Source: Bacillota bacterium (lineage in GTDB: Bacteria; Bacillota; Desulfitobacteriia; Desulfitobacteriales; JAJXUE01). Taken from it: a DNA stretch of 34,022 nucleotides. The DNA lies in the NCBI GenBank assembly GCA_021811155.1, contig JAJZPO010000028.1, positions 1-34,022 on the forward strand, read 5' to 3'. A model generated the notes under the pieces. That model saw nothing but the letters and a program-made list of their open reading frames with translations. It was not told the origin of the DNA and searched no databases. Below are positions 4,025 through 30,344 of this stretch, piece after piece (the stretch's first letter is position 1; every line of letters begins with the position of its first letter). The position numbers were made by a program, and so were the translations under genes.

Positions 4025-5515
4025 TCATATTTGGGTCTTGAATTTCCTCCCCTCTTTTTTGCACAGGCGGCAGATGACAAACTTGCCTGGCATGACTGCG
4101 CCCGGCAGACCCCCGGGCGGGGAGGTCCACTGGCCGGCCATATAGAAATTCTCCAGGCCGGGCAGGTCGCCCTTGGCGGCAAAGCTCATTTTGGTCCCCG
4201 GTGTAATCATAAAGGACATCCAGGCACCTTTCCAGGCGTTGCAGTAGCGCACATAGGTCATAGGCGTAGCCACGTCGGTTTTCTCAATCTTCCCCTCCAC
4301 CTCGGGGTAAATTTCTTGCAGCAGCGCTTGAACCCTTTGCAGGAGCAGTTCCTTTTCCCGGCGGTATTCTGCCGGGTTTTTCTTTTTCCTTTTCCAGTAT
4401 TCAAAATCGGCATTCAGTAGGCAGGTTACGCTGGACTTGCCCTTTGGTGCTATGGCTGGATCATAGCAGAAGTGCCGGAAACCCACCGTGTCATTCAGCA
4501 GTCCGCCGCCGTCCAGGGGCTGCTCGGGCTTAACGGAGTAGGCATGGGGCCGGTTGGACAGGTCGCAGTCAATCCCAAAGCTGACTTGGCAGGTAGTATA
4601 AAGGGGATACTTGGTATTGTTCGAGTACATTTCCTTCAGCTCTTCGGTCAGGTGTTTGCCGTCAAGCATCTCGAACAAGGTAAAGTGCCCATCGGCAGCC
4701 GATATCACATAATCGCCAAAGTGCTCACTACCGTCCTTCAGGCGTATGCCCACAGCCCTGCCGTCTTTGATTATTGCCTTTTCAACCCTCTTGCCGTAAT
4801 TTACTTTGCCGCCAAGTTTCAGGTATCTTTGTTCCATGCGCTTTGCAACCCGCAGGGAGCCCCCCATTGGCCAGCCAGAATCGTCATCGTTCAGACTTGC
4901 CAGGGTCATCACCAGGGAGGTGGCGGAGTAGGGAGAGGGCATGATGCTGCTCAATGCAAGGCGGATGAGGGGATCTTTAAACCTGTTGGCCAAATCAATC
5001 ACCGAGATTTTTGCATATTTACCCAACGACACCATCTTTAACCCCATAGGAAGGATCTTTAGGATATCGAGGACGTTCATCATGTCCGCAGGCTTATCCA
5101 CAGGTATATCCAACCCCGACAGCTTCCTGACAGCTTTGCAGAGCGCCCGGATTTCCTGTTCGTCCTGAGGAGAAAGCTCAAGCATGTGTTTTTCCAATTT
5201 ATCTACATCCCTGTAGATTTTAAACTCCCTGCCGTCAAGGGCATAGCGAACAAATTCCTTATTGTTAAGAATTCCTACCGAGTCATCCAGGGCTCCCACT
5301 TCATACCATAACTTGTTCAGTCCAACGCCCTGTTTGGTGCCCATCATCCAGTGGATGCACCCGTCGAAATGATACTCTCCCCTGTCCCAGCCCGTGCATT
5401 CCCCTCCCGGCTGGGTATGAAGCTCGAAAATCTCGGTGTGAAAGCCATTGAGCCTGCCATAGATGCCTGCCGTAAGCCCGGCAATTCCCGCCCCGACAAT
5501 TATAATTTTCTTCAT
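4025..5515 (-). CDS. phytoene-desaturase/retinol-saturase-like FAD oxidoreductase
   Basis: 496-residue flavoprotein of the CrtI/amine-oxidase superfamily. The N-terminus is a Rossmann FAD-binding motif (GAGIAGLTAGIYGRLNG, residues 8-24) followed by an acidic residue at the strand end. GGECTGWDRGEYHFDGC comes next, as in CrtI-like enzymes. The C-terminus has the second FAD contact region (NFYMAGQWTSPPGGLPG). Family members saturate, desaturate or isomerise polyenes, including bacterial homologues of all-trans-retinol 13,14-reductase. No other carotenoid genes lie nearby, so the substrate is unknown. The ATG start is clear. Gene length is normal and I see no damage to key motifs. Confidence 0.8.
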   Translation of the reverse strand: MKKIIIVGAGIAGLTAGIYGRLNGFHTEIFELHTQPGGECTGWDRGEYHFDGCIHWMMGTKQGVGLNKLWYEVGALDDSVGILNNKEFVRYALDGREFKIYRDVDKLEKHMLELSPQDEQEIRALCKAVRKLSGLDIPVDKPADMMNVLDILKILPMGLKMVSLGKYAKISVIDLANRFKDPLIRLALSSIMPSPYSATSLVMTLASLNDDDSGWPMGGSLRVAKRMEQRYLKLGGKVNYGKRVEKAIIKDGRAVGIRLKDGSEHFGDYVISAADGHFTLFEMLDGKHLTEELKEMYSNNTKYPLYTTCQVSFGIDCDLSNRPHAYSVKPEQPLDGGGLLNDTVGFRHFCYDPAIAPKGKSSVTCLLNADFEYWKRKKKNPAEYRREKELLLQRVQALLQEIYPEVEGKIEKTDVATPMTYVRYCNAWKGAWMSFMITPGTKMSFAAKGDLPGLENFYMAGQWTSPPGGLPGAVMPGKFVICRLCKKEGRKFKTQI

Positions 5516-13913: not shown

Positions 13914-15113
13914 CTATTCATAACGTAAGGCTTCAATTGGGTCCAGGCGGGCCGCCTTATTGGCAGGGTAGATGCCGAAGAAAACTCCTACAGCGACGGA
14001 AAAGAGCACGGCAATTAAAATGGCGGTCCAGGAAATCAGGGGCGGCCAGTTCAGCAGGTAGGAAGCGAGAATGGCTCCCCCGATGCCAACCACGATGCCG
14101 CAGGCGCCGCCGATCAGGCTGAGCACCACGGCCTCAAGCAAAAACTGCAGCAGAATATCCTTATGCCGGGCGCCCAGGGCCTTGCGGATGCCGATTTCCC
14201 TGGTGCGTTCCGTGACCGAAACCAGCATGATATTCATAATCCCGATCCCGCCAACGAACAGGGATATACCGGCCACCGCCCCAATAATATAGGTGAGGAT
14301 ATCCGCCACCTTTTTCGCGGCGCTCACCAGCTGCTCCACATTAAAAGCCTCATACCGGTCCTGGGTCCCGTGCCGCCTGTTGAGGATTGCCTTCGTGGCA
14401 GAGATGGCGCTGTCCACCAAATCCCTGCTGGCGGCTGTCCCCTCCAGCTGGTCCACCCGGTTGGTCCCGAACATCACTGACCAGGTGGACCAGGGCACAT
14501 ACATATAAGCACGGTCCGGCCCCATATCAAACTGGGCAAAGGCTGACTTTTCCTTTTCAATTACCCCTACCACCATCAAAGGCGTGTTGCGCACAATCAC
14601 CTGTTTGCCGATGGGGTCCACCCCCCGGAACAGTTTGTCGGCGAGGTTCTCATCGATTACAGTCACCCTGCGCTGGGCTGACAGGTCCTCTGTGGAAAAG
14701 AACCTGCCCGGGTTTACGGTGCGGTTGCGCACGACGGCGAAAGACGGAGTTGTCCCCACCACCACCGCCTGAGCCTCGCGTTCTTCTGCCGCTGCTGTGG
14801 CATATTCCACGCTGGCCGGCACTATGTCCTTTACCGAAGTAAGGGCATCCTTGACTGCCTGGGCATCCCGCAGGGTAAGCCTCTCATTGGGCGGAATCGT
14901 ATCTGTATCCACGCTGCGTACATAGACCACAAACAGGTTGACCCCGCTTCGCTCCATTTCCCGTGTTATGGCCGCCCTGCCCCCCTGTCCGATGGCCACC
15001 ACGGCAATAACCGCGGCAATCCCAATGACTATACCCAGCATGGTCAAAAAGGCCCGCAGCTTGTTGGCCCAGATTCCTTCCGCCGCCACCCGTACGCTTT
15101 CCAGCCAATTCAC
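13914..15113 (-). CDS. MacB/FtsX-type ABC transporter permease
   Basis: 399-residue permease: one N-terminal membrane helix (AFLTMLGIVIGIAAVIAVVA), a periplasmic-type MacB_PCD domain of about 200 residues, then three C-terminal helices and the signature ending PANKAARLDPIEALRYE. MacB-type systems use mechanotransmission to push substrates out with an adaptor, and need an ATPase subunit. Here the permease has no fused nucleotide-binding domain, and no ATPase gene is adjacent. The start is GTG directly after the adaptor stop (TAG-GTG), so the two are translationally coupled. The substrate is unknown. Confidence 0.9.
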   Translation of the reverse strand: MNWLESVRVAAEGIWANKLRAFLTMLGIVIGIAAVIAVVAIGQGGRAAITREMERSGVNLFVVYVRSVDTDTIPPNERLTLRDAQAVKDALTSVKDIVPASVEYATAAAEEREAQAVVVGTTPSFAVVRNRTVNPGRFFSTEDLSAQRRVTVIDENLADKLFRGVDPIGKQVIVRNTPLMVVGVIEKEKSAFAQFDMGPDRAYMYVPWSTWSVMFGTNRVDQLEGTAASRDLVDSAISATKAILNRRHGTQDRYEAFNVEQLVSAAKKVADILTYIIGAVAGISLFVGGIGIMNIMLVSVTERTREIGIRKALGARHKDILLQFLLEAVVLSLIGGACGIVVGIGGAILASYLLNWPPLISWTAILIAVLFSVAVGVFFGIYPANKAARLDPIEALRYE

Positions 15114-16235
15114 CTACTCCACCTTAACCTTCATTCCCTCGCTGAGGTCGTTGGACGGGTTGAGCACCACCAAATCTCCTTCCTCCAGACCCGAGGTTAC
15201 TTCCATGTTGATATCCCCTACAATCCCCGTTGCCACCTTGGCCTTGCGCAGGATTCCGTCTTTCACCACGTAAACATATTTGTCACTATCCGCCGTAATC
15301 ACAGCTTCAAGTGGGACCTGGAGGATATTATCCTTTGCTGCCGTGACCACCGTCAGGTTGACAGAATAGCCGGGCTTCAGGGCGGGGTCGCTTTGATCAA
15401 CGCTGAATTTAACCTGCACCGTGGTCTGGCTGCCTTGGGCTGTGGCTTGAGTTTGGGCCATGGGCGCAACGGAGGTGACCTTGCCGCTGAATTGTTTGTC
15501 AGCCAGAGTGGCGCCGGTAATTTTTACGATCTGGCCCGGGGCCAGCTTGGCTGCATCCACCTGGTTGATATCCGCTTCTACTATCAAGCGACTCAGGTCA
15601 CCGACAATGACCAGAGGCGCCTGCGGGGCTGCCATCTGATTCGGGGCCACATTGACCTGAAGCGCCGTTCCATCTATGGCTGCCGTAACCTTAGCCTGAT
15701 CTTTTTGACTTTGTACCACAGCAAGGGAAGCCTGGGCTTGTTTCAGCGCTGCCTGGGCCTGAAGCAGGGCGTTTTTGGCGTCATCGATTGAGCCTGTCAA
15801 CATACCCGGGCCCGCTGTTGGCTGACCCGGCAATCCCCCTGCATTAGCCGTTGGCGCCTGGCCGGCCTGCTGCAATTCAGTTACCCGGGCATTTGCCGCC
15901 GTTACATTGGCCCTTGCCACATCGACCGCTGCCTGGGCCTGTTTTATCTGCAAGTCAATGTCTGTAGTGTCCAGTTGAAGTAAAACCGCTCCCTTTTTTA
16001 CCGGAGTACCTACGCTAACCGCCACACTCTTCACCAAGCTGGGTTTATACAAGGTAACTTCCTGTTTACTGGCCATGTCTATAGTGCCGGTGGCGTAAAC
16101 TTTTGTCTCGATGCGGGCCCGTTTTACCCCAACAGCCTTAACCTGCGGCAGGTCAGCCTGGCTGTGGCGGTAAAAGAAATATCCCCCAGTCCCCAAAACT
16201 ACTAGAGCAGCCAAGAACAGCGCCAGCTTTTTCAA
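15114..16235 (-). CDS. MacA/HlyD-family efflux adaptor
   Basis: 373-residue periplasmic-adaptor-like protein. The N-terminal membrane anchor (LALFLAALVVLGTGGYFFY) is followed by a barrel-sandwich/lipoyl half (VKSVAVSVGTPVKKGAVLLQLD), an alanine/glutamine-rich helical hairpin (about residues 95-190) interrupted by a Gly/Pro-rich turn, the second lipoyl half, and a beta-barrel domain. The TTG start at 16235 has GGGGGTGA upstream. The minus strand has a TGCTAAGAT extended -10-like sequence at 16267-16275. It is co-transcribed with the permease. In a Gram-positive cell it would act on the outer face of the single membrane. Confidence 0.9.
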   Translation of the reverse strand: MKKLALFLAALVVLGTGGYFFYRHSQADLPQVKAVGVKRARIETKVYATGTIDMASKQEVTLYKPSLVKSVAVSVGTPVKKGAVLLQLDTTDIDLQIKQAQAAVDVARANVTAANARVTELQQAGQAPTANAGGLPGQPTAGPGMLTGSIDDAKNALLQAQAALKQAQASLAVVQSQKDQAKVTAAIDGTALQVNVAPNQMAAPQAPLVIVGDLSRLIVEADINQVDAAKLAPGQIVKITGATLADKQFSGKVTSVAPMAQTQATAQGSQTTVQVKFSVDQSDPALKPGYSVNLTVVTAAKDNILQVPLEAVITADSDKYVYVVKDGILRKAKVATGIVGDINMEVTSGLEEGDLVVLNPSNDLSEGMKVKVE

Positions 16236-16391
16236 GCCTTCACCCCCGGAGATTCACTATTACAATATCTTAGCACATTTTGGGACAAAACCGAAATCAG
16301 GCCTTTTTCCCCCAGCCGGGACCCTTCTGCCGCTTTTGGAATAAATTGCTAGTAAGTAAGCGCCAGCCGGTTTTGTACAGGGGGAATAATC

Positions 16392-17990
16392 TTGCAGCAG
16401 CTCCTTGACCGCTCTCTCAGATACGCCCGCAGCTTTGTCCATCAGGGAATAACCTCTATTGCCGGAGAAAAACCCGTCCCATCCGCCTACCTGATATCTG
16501 CGGCGCCTGTGCCCACTGCTTTGGCCATGCTTGCCCTTGCTGCAGGCGGGGCCGGCCACATTCAGAATATCCGGCTCGGGGCGGATTACCTGAAAAATAC
16601 ACGCTTGTCCCAGGGTTGGGGCAATACACCCGCCGGCCCGGCAAACAATCTGGCTGCCGCTATCTGTTCCAAAGGCTTGACGGCGCTCGATCCACCTGGG
16701 ATCACTCCCCAGCTAATCCACGACGCTGCGTGCCTGGTAGCAAAAACCTGGACCCAGGATTTCGACCGTTTGGCGCCGGGCTGGCTGCCAAAGCAAAACT
16801 CTCCTCTCATCAAACTGCTGGAGGCAATCAGCGGCAAAACTCTGATCCCCACCCTGGAGACCATAACCCTGCGGGACTTTAAGAGCCTTTCCCACTTCAT
16901 GCCCCCCTATGGCCGTCCCACCATGCTGGCCGTGACCCTGATCAAAGAATGGAACCGCCACGGCAAGGATGAAGAGACCATAGCAGCAGCAAAAGAACTG
17001 GCCGGCTGGGTTTCAGCCGACGGGTCATGGTGCGAAGACGTTGTGGTAACCTCCATGGCGGTCCTGGCCCTGTCCCTTGCCGGTTTAACGGAGCCTCTGA
17101 ACAAAGCGTATGACTGGTTGAGCGAAACCCAGTATGATCACGGCGGCTGGCCTGCTTTCAACCAGTTGACCAACTGGGCCGCCGGCTGGGCCGCTCAGAT
17201 CGTGGGCAGTCCGCAGATTTATCAGCTCACCACACCTTACCTGCTCCGTGCCATCAATCAGGATGGCAGCCTTGGCACTACCCCCCCCAATTCCTATCCT
17301 GATCTGGATGACACTGCTATCGGCCTGCTGGGGCTCCTCAGTGACCCAAATGTACCGCTGGCCCCGCTGCATAAGCCGCGGGATCTGCTGCTTAGACTGC
17401 AGAACAGTGACGGCAGTTGGGGAACCTTCCCTTCTTTCACCGGTTTGCCGCCCGGTTGCAGCTGTGACTTCCCGGTTTACATCAAGAGCGCAGACGTAAC
17501 CTTGCATGTCCTGCAGGCCCTGCTCAAACTGGGTTTCCCCGAGACCTCCTTACCCGTAACCAGGGCTTTGGGCTGGTTAACCAGGTGCCAGCATGCCGAC
17601 GGCACCTGGGATTCGACCTGGTTCCTGGGCCAGACCTATGCCACAGCCCAGATTATCGACCTGCTGCTGGACCTAAAGCCCGATGCGGAAACCACCACCC
17701 GGGGAATCAACTACCTGCTGGGAGCACAAAAGAACGGCCATTGGGACAGGGGTTCAGCGGGTGAAACCGGTCTCGCTCTGTACACCTTGTTGAAGGCAGG
17801 CACATACCCCCACTCCACAACGATAACCAAAGGCCTGGATTACCTTATCTCCCTGCAAACCTCGGATGGTTCCTTCCTCCCCTTTTACAGCGGTTTTTAC
17901 GCCAGCGGGCTCTACTATGAAGAACCCCTGTCCGAAGCCATGGCCGCCCTCCGGGCCCTGGAACTGTTCCTAAAGCTTACACAAAAATGA
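16392..17990 (+). CDS. class II terpene cyclase-like protein (squalene-hopene cyclase/prenyltransferase repeats)
   Basis: 532-residue alpha-toroid protein with squalene-cyclase/prenyltransferase repeats. QW-type motifs are QNSDGSW (337-343), QHADGTW (400-406), QKNGHW (446-451) and the diverged QTSDGSF (489-495); weaker ones are ADGSW (209-213) and QDGSL (290-294). PDLDDTA (303-309) matches the DxDDTA acid motif that protonates the substrate in class II cyclases, which argues against a dead scaffold. It is about 100 residues shorter than usual squalene-hopene cyclases and close to bacterial class II diterpene cyclases, so the substrate could be squalene-like or a prenyl diphosphate. TTG start with GGGGGA six bases upstream. 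It is divergent from the efflux pair; no prenyl-diphosphate synthase is nearby. The stop TGA opens a repeat. Confidence 0.82.
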   Translation: MQQLLDRSLRYARSFVHQGITSIAGEKPVPSAYLISAAPVPTALAMLALAAGGAGHIQNIRLGADYLKNTRLSQGWGNTPAGPANNLAAAICSKGLTALDPPGITPQLIHDAACLVAKTWTQDFDRLAPGWLPKQNSPLIKLLEAISGKTLIPTLETITLRDFKSLSHFMPPYGRPTMLAVTLIKEWNRHGKDEETIAAAKELAGWVSADGSWCEDVVVTSMAVLALSLAGLTEPLNKAYDWLSETQYDHGGWPAFNQLTNWAAGWAAQIVGSPQIYQLTTPYLLRAINQDGSLGTTPPNSYPDLDDTAIGLLGLLSDPNVPLAPLHKPRDLLLRLQNSDGSWGTFPSFTGLPPGCSCDFPVYIKSADVTLHVLQALLKLGFPETSLPVTRALGWLTRCQHADGTWDSTWFLGQTYATAQIIDLLLDLKPDAETTTRGINYLLGAQKNGHWDRGSAGETGLALYTLLKAGTYPHSTTITKGLDYLISLQTSDGSFLPFYSGFYASGLYYEEPLSEAMAALRALELFLKLTQK

Positions 17991-28557: not shown

Positions 28558-29067
28558 GTGCCAAATGATTCTTCTTTTGATGAAGTTTATGAACAGATTT
28601 TTTTGCCTGTCTTCCAGTTTGTCAGGCTGAGGGTCCCCGCCAGCGACGTCGATGACGTGACTGCGGAAGTAATTGCCAAGGTATGGCGGGCCTTGCCCCG
28701 TTTTGAGGCAAAAAGCTCGCTCAAGACCTGGGCCTTGCGCATCGCTTATCATCAGGTAGCTGATTACTACCGCTCGCAGAAACTAAAGCCAACGGTACAA
28801 CTTCAGGTGAACCTGGCTGAAAGCAATACGGCGGATGACCACAGCGAAAAAGTGGCAACCTTGCTTTCAGTCAGTCAAACCTTGGCGAAAATGCCCAGAC
28901 CGCAAGTGGCCGTGATCCAGCTCAGGCTGGTGGAAAACTTTAGCGCCGCAGAGACCGGTGAGATTCTCGGTCTGACCCAAAAAGCGGTTGACAGTCTCCT
29001 CTACAGGGCCAAGAAGAGCTTCCGCAAAATCTATGCCTTGGAGAGCGCAGGAGGTAAGAGTCGATGA
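28558..29067 (+). CDS. ECF-type RNA polymerase sigma factor
   Basis: 169-residue sigma-70 family protein of the ECF type, with only regions 2 and 4. Region 2: FVRLRVPASDVDDVTAEVIAKVWRALPRF...SSLKTWALRIAYHQVADYYRS (core binding and -10 recognition). Region 4: LPRP-like MPRPQVAVIQLRLVENFSAAETGEILGLTQKAVDSLLYRAKKSFRK (helix-turn-helix for -35). GTG start with GGAGG about 11 nt upstream. Its stop overlaps the start of the next gene (ATGA), a usual sign of a sigma/anti-sigma pair. Confidence 0.9.
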   Translation: MPNDSSFDEVYEQIFLPVFQFVRLRVPASDVDDVTAEVIAKVWRALPRFEAKSSLKTWALRIAYHQVADYYRSQKLKPTVQLQVNLAESNTADDHSEKVATLLSVSQTLAKMPRPQVAVIQLRLVENFSAAETGEILGLTQKAVDSLLYRAKKSFRKIYALESAGGKSR

Positions 29068-30344
29068 GAAAGCAAGTGGATCCTTTGCGGTTGTGGGAAC
29101 AGGATGGTGACCTGGAACTGATGAAGAAGTTTTTTAATAACCTGAGCGGCAAAGACGAAAAGGAACGCATCAAGCAGATGGTGCTGGCGAAACTGGCCCA
29201 GGACGGAACTCGTGATACTCAAATCGGGCAAGCATCTCGTGTTGAGCGGGATCCTTACAAGGAGCATGCAAGCCTGCCTGCCAGAATCAAAGGAGCTTGG
29301 CAGAATTCCTGGCGGCGTTGGGGCTGGAAAATGGCCCTGCCGGTAGCGGCTATGGTACTCGTGGCCGTCATTGGGCAGGCAGGTCTAGGCGGATTGGGGG
29401 ACAAGCAGCCCGCTTCTTCTCCAGCGTCTCAAAAGGCAACCGCGAATCTTAGTGTGGGCAACAGTCCGGCAAGCGAGAACGCTGCCGGCTCTGCTGACAG
29501 CGGCACAGGCCGTCGTAGCGCACATTCCTCAGCAGCGACTCCACCTACCGGATTTGGCAGCCAGGCTTCATCGCTTGGCGGAGGGCAGACCAAGGACAAG
29601 GCCCAAGTCATTGTTCCGCCTACCCCGCCGGCCGCCCCCCCTGCCGACCCCAGCCTGCCCAGAAAAATCACCCGCAACATGAGCGCCACCCTCCAAGTGG
29701 AAAAGGTTGAAACTGCGGCAGACAAGTTGAATAGCCTCGCCCAATCCCTGGGAGGCTATACAGTAGATTCCCAGCTGGATAATCAGCAGGATAGTTCTAA
29801 TGCCGTTGCCCACGTGACGTTCAAAATTCCGGCAGACAAGTTTGAAGGTGTGCGCAGCAGCCTGGCCGAGATCGGCAAAGTCCTCAACCAGCATATTTCT
29901 GCCGACGATATCACCAATCAGTATTATGATGCGGACACCAGGCTAAAAAACTGGCAGGCAGAAGAACAGCGCTATCTGGACATTCTGCGTCAGGCCAAAA
30001 GCGTCAATGACATCCTCAGCGTGGAAAATTCTTTAAGCAATATCCGCATGCAGATCGAACAGCTTAAAGGACAGCTCAAACTCTGGGACAACGAAGTTGC
30101 TTACTCAACCATCCAGGTACAGCTTCAGACAAAACCGAATCCGGTCAGAGTGAATGAGCCTTGGCAGCCAATCTCCTGGCACACAACCTGGCAGGCCGCC
30201 AAAAACGCCGTACTCAAGACCATCAGTGCGAGCTGGAATTTCTTAAACTATTTGGTTGTAGGTCTTGGTTATGCACTCCCCTTCCTGGTTTTGGCAGGCG
30301 CGGGATATCTGGGCTACCGCCAATGGCGCAGGAAAAAAGGCTGA
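29064..30344 (+). CDS. DUF4349 membrane protein, probable anti-sigma factor
   Basis: 426 residues. A cytoplasmic N-terminus (1-88, charged) is followed by one membrane helix (about 89-106), a Ser/Ala/Pro low-complexity linker (about 112-205), an extracytoplasmic DUF4349 domain (about 205-370) with a coiled-coil-prone middle (LKNWQAEEQRYLDILRQAKS), and a C-terminal membrane helix (about 393-418) ending in RRKKG. The ATGA overlap with the ECF gene suggests that the N-terminal part binds the sigma factor and the outer domain senses an envelope signal. That role is inferred; I see no clear zinc-binding anti-sigma (HxxxCxxC) motif. Confidence 0.78.
   Translation: MRKQVDPLRLWEQDGDLELMKKFFNNLSGKDEKERIKQMVLAKLAQDGTRDTQIGQASRVERDPYKEHASLPARIKGAWQNSWRRWGWKMALPVAAMVLVAVIGQAGLGGLGDKQPASSPASQKATANLSVGNSPASENAAGSADSGTGRRSAHSSAATPPTGFGSQASSLGGGQTKDKAQVIVPPTPPAAPPADPSLPRKITRNMSATLQVEKVETAADKLNSLAQSLGGYTVDSQLDNQQDSSNAVAHVTFKIPADKFEGVRSSLAEIGKVLNQHISADDITNQYYDADTRLKNWQAEEQRYLDILRQAKSVNDILSVENSLSNIRMQIEQLKGQLKLWDNEVAYSTIQVQLQTKPNPVRVNEPWQPISWHTTWQAAKNAVLKTISASWNFLNYLVVGLGYALPFLVLAGAGYLGYRQWRRKKG

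Follow-up and report, generated by a model that had tools for sequence, protein, structure and literature searches.

Locus and gene content

The window, i.e. the whole stretch of 34,022 nucleotides that was analysed, is the entire contig C48 of genome G000. It carries a gene for a class II terpene cyclase, present as a single copy in its genome, and the features used in this analysis are as follows (SHC, squalene-hopene cyclase):

13914-15113, minus strand: MacB-type permease (MacB_PCD and FtsX), conserved in G231
15114-16235, minus strand: HlyD/RND-type membrane-fusion adaptor, divergent from the cyclase gene and 156 bp away from it, conserved in G231
16380-16384, plus strand: GGGGG, a Shine-Dalgarno-like stretch just 5' of the TTG start, by direct reading
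16392-17990, plus strand: class II terpene cyclase of 532 aa, read from a TTG start and belonging to a short, uncharacterised clade
17028-17051, plus strand: W213-x-E215-D216-xxx-T220, family signature with a putative role
17301-17318, plus strand: DLDDTA (residues 304-309), protonating DxDD motif
17493-17507, plus strand: D368-VTL-H372, aligned with the DVTaH of the Alicyclobacillus SHC
17763-17765, plus strand: E458, a Glu also in diterpene cyclases and a Gln in most SHCs

The protein has four QW-type motifs, at residues 247, 337, 400 and 489, and its D368-H372 stretch aligns with D447...H451 of the Alicyclobacillus enzyme. Concerning the family libraries, it matches the Pfam model SQHop_cyclase_C with 74.6 bits (cut-off 26.1) and SQHop_cyclase_N weakly, while the NCBIfam squalene/oxidosqualene cyclase models remain far under their cut-offs, with 73 vs. 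323 bits and, for the hopene cyclase model TIGR01507, 61 vs. 431 bits.

The original prediction had described a stand-alone, short class II cyclase of 532 residues, with a whole acid motif, several QW motifs and no prenyl synthase neighbour, divergent from an efflux adaptor/permease pair within a conserved housekeeping series. The open reading frame is indeed intact, the acid motif is complete and the predicted structure is confident. No prenyl synthase was found on the window contig, the four PF00348 matches of G000 being located on contigs C67, C32 and C27. Both transporter genes are kept in G231, as is the Obg / SpoB-like / RNase G / rSAM / RodA series. Elsewhere in the window, at 28558-30344 (plus strand), an ECF-like sigma-70-family sigma factor and a DUF4349 protein are encoded in tandem; this pair, on the opposite strand, separates an M23 peptidase gene from rodA, and these two flanks directly adjoin each other in G231.

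Distribution and conservation of the family

Relatives of the cyclase were found in 11 of the 398 phylum genomes (the window's genome included) and, within the order, in 42 of the 74 genomes, plus three genomes of the distant family f14. A single-protein search of the whole collection returned one weak and distant locus (L012). No clade member turned up in the plasmid collection, where the best match was a Halorussus plasmid cyclase (L114; 26%, E 2e-13).

Since all 33 relatives read are 518 to 546 aa long, the reduced length is a property of the family and not a sign of decay. A truncated or decayed SHC was excluded, the relatives read being alike in length with their motifs intact, and so was a chance reading frame or gene fragment, a protein of about 530 aa being conserved in 33 sequences. 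Six residues, D304, D306, D307 and T308 of the acid motif together with D368 and H372, are invariant in 33/33 sequences, as are R175, W213, E215, D216, Y248, W253, W262, W410 and Y503. Near-invariant Lys/Arg residues are few: R175, also found in SHC, K/R437 and R521.

No paper on terpene cyclases in these organisms was found in the open-licence literature. The clade consists of genuine class II cyclases, of which neither the accessible literature nor the family libraries contain a characterised member.

Two other loci were recorded. A 551-aa repeat protein (L085, G138:C36) lies outside the clade, yet carries DPDDT. At L066 (G357:C4:291776-292729), a Bacillota SHC-type gene has an in-frame TGA within the matched stretch, possibly because of a pseudogene or an assembly error.

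Predicted fold and sequence kinship

The AlphaFold2 model, run on a 32-row family alignment, reached a mean pLDDT of 89.5 and a pTM of 0.89, and is poor only at residues ~127-139. Its top Foldseek match is the Alicyclobacillus SHC (E 1.2e-15, TM 0.73 by query length), followed by drimenyl diphosphate synthase (TM 0.69/0.75 by query/target) and, further away, by Rv3377c (0.59/0.64) and PtmT2 (0.58/0.60). The predicted fold fits that of class II cyclases, given its matches to SHC, drimenyl diphosphate synthase (DMS) and copalyl-type (CPS) enzymes and the presence of DxDD and QW repeats; the structure prediction that had been proposed as a check gave a confident model which matches active cyclases.

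At the sequence level, the family profile scored 111 bits against the SHC in the PDB, 62 against drimenyl diphosphate synthase, 47.5 against Rv3377c and 41 against PtmT2. Profile-profile comparison with hhalign, for which the reference sets were small and of unequal depth, ranked the groups as SHC (265), haloarchaeal cyclase (186), drimenyl-type (174) and diterpene-type (123). By sequence profile the family is nearer to SHC than to diterpene cyclases, contrary to the original prediction, which had placed the protein closer to the latter than to hopene synthases.

The tree included ten SHC/SqhC, four diterpene-type, two drimenyl-type and one haloarchaeal reference. A gibberellin-type CPS was not found in two stretches of pNGR234a, and the CPS reference was taken from Sinorhizobium terangae. 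The family forms its own clade (100/100), as do SHC plus SqhC (100/100) and the diterpene cyclases (100/100), SqhC sitting within the SHC clade and apart from the family. At the deeper branches, the AU test did not decide between the groupings, with p values of 0.067 for family plus SHC, 0.27 for family plus diterpene cyclases and 0.10 for family plus the haloarchaeal cyclase. Phylogeny, which had also been proposed as a check, gave a distinct clade; the grouping with diterpene cyclases is absent from the best tree, although a joint clade is not rejected. The family also differs from most non-enzymatic repeat proteins in its intact acid motif.

Size, lost insert and distinctive residues

The Alicyclobacillus acidocaldarius SHC (1gsz/2sqc/3sqc), which heads the PDB matches in both the profile and the fold comparison, resembles the window protein in its DxDDTA and DVTxH motifs, its QW repeats and its two helical-barrel domains, but belongs to a separate clade and is ~100 residues longer. 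Half of this difference lies in one insert: the R175-W213 span has 39 residues in the window protein as against 89 in SHC, with two diterpene cyclases at 41-56, so the large insert typical of SHC, ~50 residues, is gone in the family. Smaller losses vs. SHC are found before DxDD and within 373-455. The large SHC segment takes in the membrane-contacting and channel part. SHC itself is a monotopic membrane enzyme (PMC9586974). The loss of the insert is common to the family and to enzymes acting on soluble diphosphates. As for the short size, from which kinship with diterpene cyclases had been deduced, a likeness to diphosphate cyclases stands for length, missing insert and E458; a nearer kinship by sequence is not supported.

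None of the SHC, diterpene or drimenyl references has the acidic pair E215-D216, which from the alignment would lie at the far end of the cavity. The D368/H372 stretch is common to the family and SHC, while the Y503 tail is common to the family and the diterpene cyclases. The position of H372 is occupied by Arg in SqhC, and where the diterpene set conserves a Lys/Arg before W410, the family has Ser/Thr/Val/Ile.

Among the other known systems, drimenyl diphosphate synthase (SsDMS, 7xq4) is similar in size and overall fold, the structurally aligned sequences being 17-18% identical. Two DMS-like references whose genes have a HAD phosphatase as neighbour lie outside the clade, and no such neighbour was noticed at the clade loci. 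The Halorussus caseinilyticus plasmid cyclase shares the acid motif in the form DWDDTA, but has 693 aa and is outside the clade. At its locus (L114, 5203-12371, plus strand), it stands beside an MMPL transporter, a polyprenyl synthase and UbiA, making it a parallel transporter-linked cyclase locus.

Substrate supply

Squalene synthase (PF00494) is absent from 11/11 genomes, i.e. G000 and ten relatives, while two Bacillus-type genomes and B. subtilis, used as controls, were positive. Squalene is very unlikely to be the substrate because these genomes lack its synthase, and the squalene/hopene route was ruled out on this basis. Of note, the window encodes a CrtI/carotenoid-isomerase-like FAD protein at 4025-5515 (minus strand), and its genome has neither phytoene synthase nor squalene synthase.

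The isoprenoid synthases of G000 are an FPP-type enzyme, a HepT-type enzyme and a second, HepT-like one whose gene is arranged tail-to-tail with that of YtpB/DUF2600 (412.7 bits) on contig C27 (L029, 182-2550). This HepT-like/YtpB pair recurs in most of the f2 genomes, with 41-61% identity at the synthase, and is missing in f3. The sporulene of Bacillus is made by HepS/HepT, YtpB and SqhC, the B. subtilis SqhC converting the product of YtpB (PMC11708026).

The cyclase and YtpB dissociate in both directions. Even though YtpB is present in 34 of the 35 cyclase-positive f2 genomes, their association within f2 is not significant (Fisher p 0.14). Several f2 genomes have YtpB without the cyclase, including G124, a complete genome in one contig. 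Conversely, nine genomes have the cyclase without YtpB, namely all five cyclase-positive f3 genomes (G346, G443, G445, G458 and G459), G231 and the three f14 genomes (G161, G211 and G236). Most of them are drafts; G346 is a single contig and 99% complete. As an obligate partner of the clade, YtpB is ruled out by these nine genomes. A substrate common to all members would thus be neither squalene nor the YtpB product, and since the clade occurs without either synthase, the general substrate is probably a polyprenyl diphosphate or some other polyprenyl lipid.

In the phylum as a whole, YtpB/DUF2600 was found in 144 of the 398 genomes, of which only about a dozen also have a DxDD class II cyclase; a YtpB-type synthase without a known cyclase is the rule in this set.

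Transporters next to the cyclase genes

An ABC-2 exporter lies 3' of the cyclase in nine loci, five in f3 and four in f2. In f3 (G346, G445, G443, G459 and G458), an ABC ATPase gene directly follows the cyclase, then an ABC-2 permease; the other four ATPases show 57-72% identity to that of G346, and the reading frames overlap in G459. In f2 (G003, G155, G417 and G409), the cyclase is followed by a UbiB-like kinase and then by the orthologous ABC ATPase and ABC-2 permease (50-53%), after which come a methyltransferase and a second permease. This methyltransferase has a ~45% identical counterpart immediately 5' of the G443 cyclase. Also in G443, a polyprenyl synthase gene is convergent with the exporter, ~1.4 kb from the cyclase.

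Other types of transporter were also observed. The MacA/B-like pair stands beside the cyclase in both cyclase-holding f1 genomes (the window's and G231), a MacB-like/adaptor pair is found one to a few genes from the cyclase in three g6 genomes, and an AcrB-type pump adjoins the cyclase in G161. The polyprenyl synthase near the G161 cyclase was discounted as support, since it belongs to a series of haem genes. In about two thirds of the examined loci, no ABC-2 exporter adjoins the cyclase. The association between ABC-2 exporter and cyclase is strong; the other transporter links are suggestive, transporter neighbours being common by chance. The suggestion made earlier that the product is secreted gains support from these exporter-linked relatives.

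Proposed function and alternatives

We propose that the window protein is a competent class II cyclase of a separate short clade, which acts on a polyprenyl chain other than squalene and yields an exported terpenoid, a reading to which we give a probability of about one half. The acid site would work as in SHC, and the enzyme is assigned neither to the SHCs nor to the diterpene cyclases. D306 would protonate the terminal alkene of a linear polyprenyl chain, which would then close into rings. E215-D216 may hold a polar head group or serve as the terminal base; a diphosphate site is putative, with few invariant Lys/Arg of the family's own. The product would probably be modified next, a methyltransferase being present in some loci, and could be exported by the adjacent transporter, of ABC-2 type in many relatives and possibly the MacA/MacB-like pair in the window. 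A broader version, more tentative, is that of an undescribed, soluble-type clade of anaerobic Bacillota which would cyclise a polyprenyl diphosphate or prenyl lipid without squalene or YtpB, within an exporter-linked pathway (cyclase, ABC-2 exporter, methyltransferase, UbiB-like kinase and polyprenyl synthase) making new exported cyclic terpenoid lipids.

For the window's own genome, a serious rival is the sesquarterpene route, in which the HepT-like synthase and YtpB would make a C35-type prenyl-curcumene and the cyclase would replace SqhC, giving a sporulene-like spore or membrane lipid. A spore or membrane terpenoid, as the original prediction had imagined, is possible because G000 has the YtpB module elsewhere, with its dedicated synthase tail-to-tail; the pair is also kept in the f2 genomes checked. 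SqhC, the sporulenol synthase/tetraprenyl-beta-curcumene cyclase, is likewise a class II cyclase of spore-formers. We nevertheless regard this route as somewhat doubtful: the clade is distinct from SqhC, which in the sequence read has 627 aa, belongs with the SHCs and carries Arg in place of H372, and the cyclase also occurs where YtpB is missing, just as the complete G124 has YtpB and no cyclase.

A strict diterpene cyclase, turning GGPP into a copalyl-type diphosphate for a secreted diterpenoid, is unlikely. Rv3377c (6vpt), PtmT2 (5bp8) and the rhizobial CPS do resemble the window protein in size (513-532 vs. 532 aa), in the missing insert and in DxDD, E458 and the Y503 tail, and the AU test leaves room for a joint clade, but their profile similarity is the weakest among the groups tested, the Lys/Arg before W410 is replaced in the family, and no operon with a GGPP synthase, class I synthase or P450 was seen, unlike at the Streptomyces and Micromonospora loci. 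A shortened SHC is highly improbable: SHC is the closest solved relative in sequence and fold, yet the score under the hopene cyclase model, the separate clade and the lack of PF00494 all speak against it. Equally improbable is a non-enzymatic prenyltransferase-repeat protein. The family has alpha/alpha repeats in common with such proteins, and the SCO2321 and pectate lyase models give weak matches, but most short PF13243-matched repeat proteins lack DxDD, while here the acid and the Asp-His residues are invariant across distant relatives.

Cyclic terpenoids of bacteria are either sterol-like membrane lipids or secreted compounds, and they are long-lived as fossils. Returning to the exported terpenoid proposed above, a conserved cyclase without squalene synthase points to a product that, judging from the accessible literature, has apparently never been sought. 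The conserved exporter provides a direct genetic handle on it, and because cyclase and YtpB dissociate both ways, the question of the substrate can be tested.
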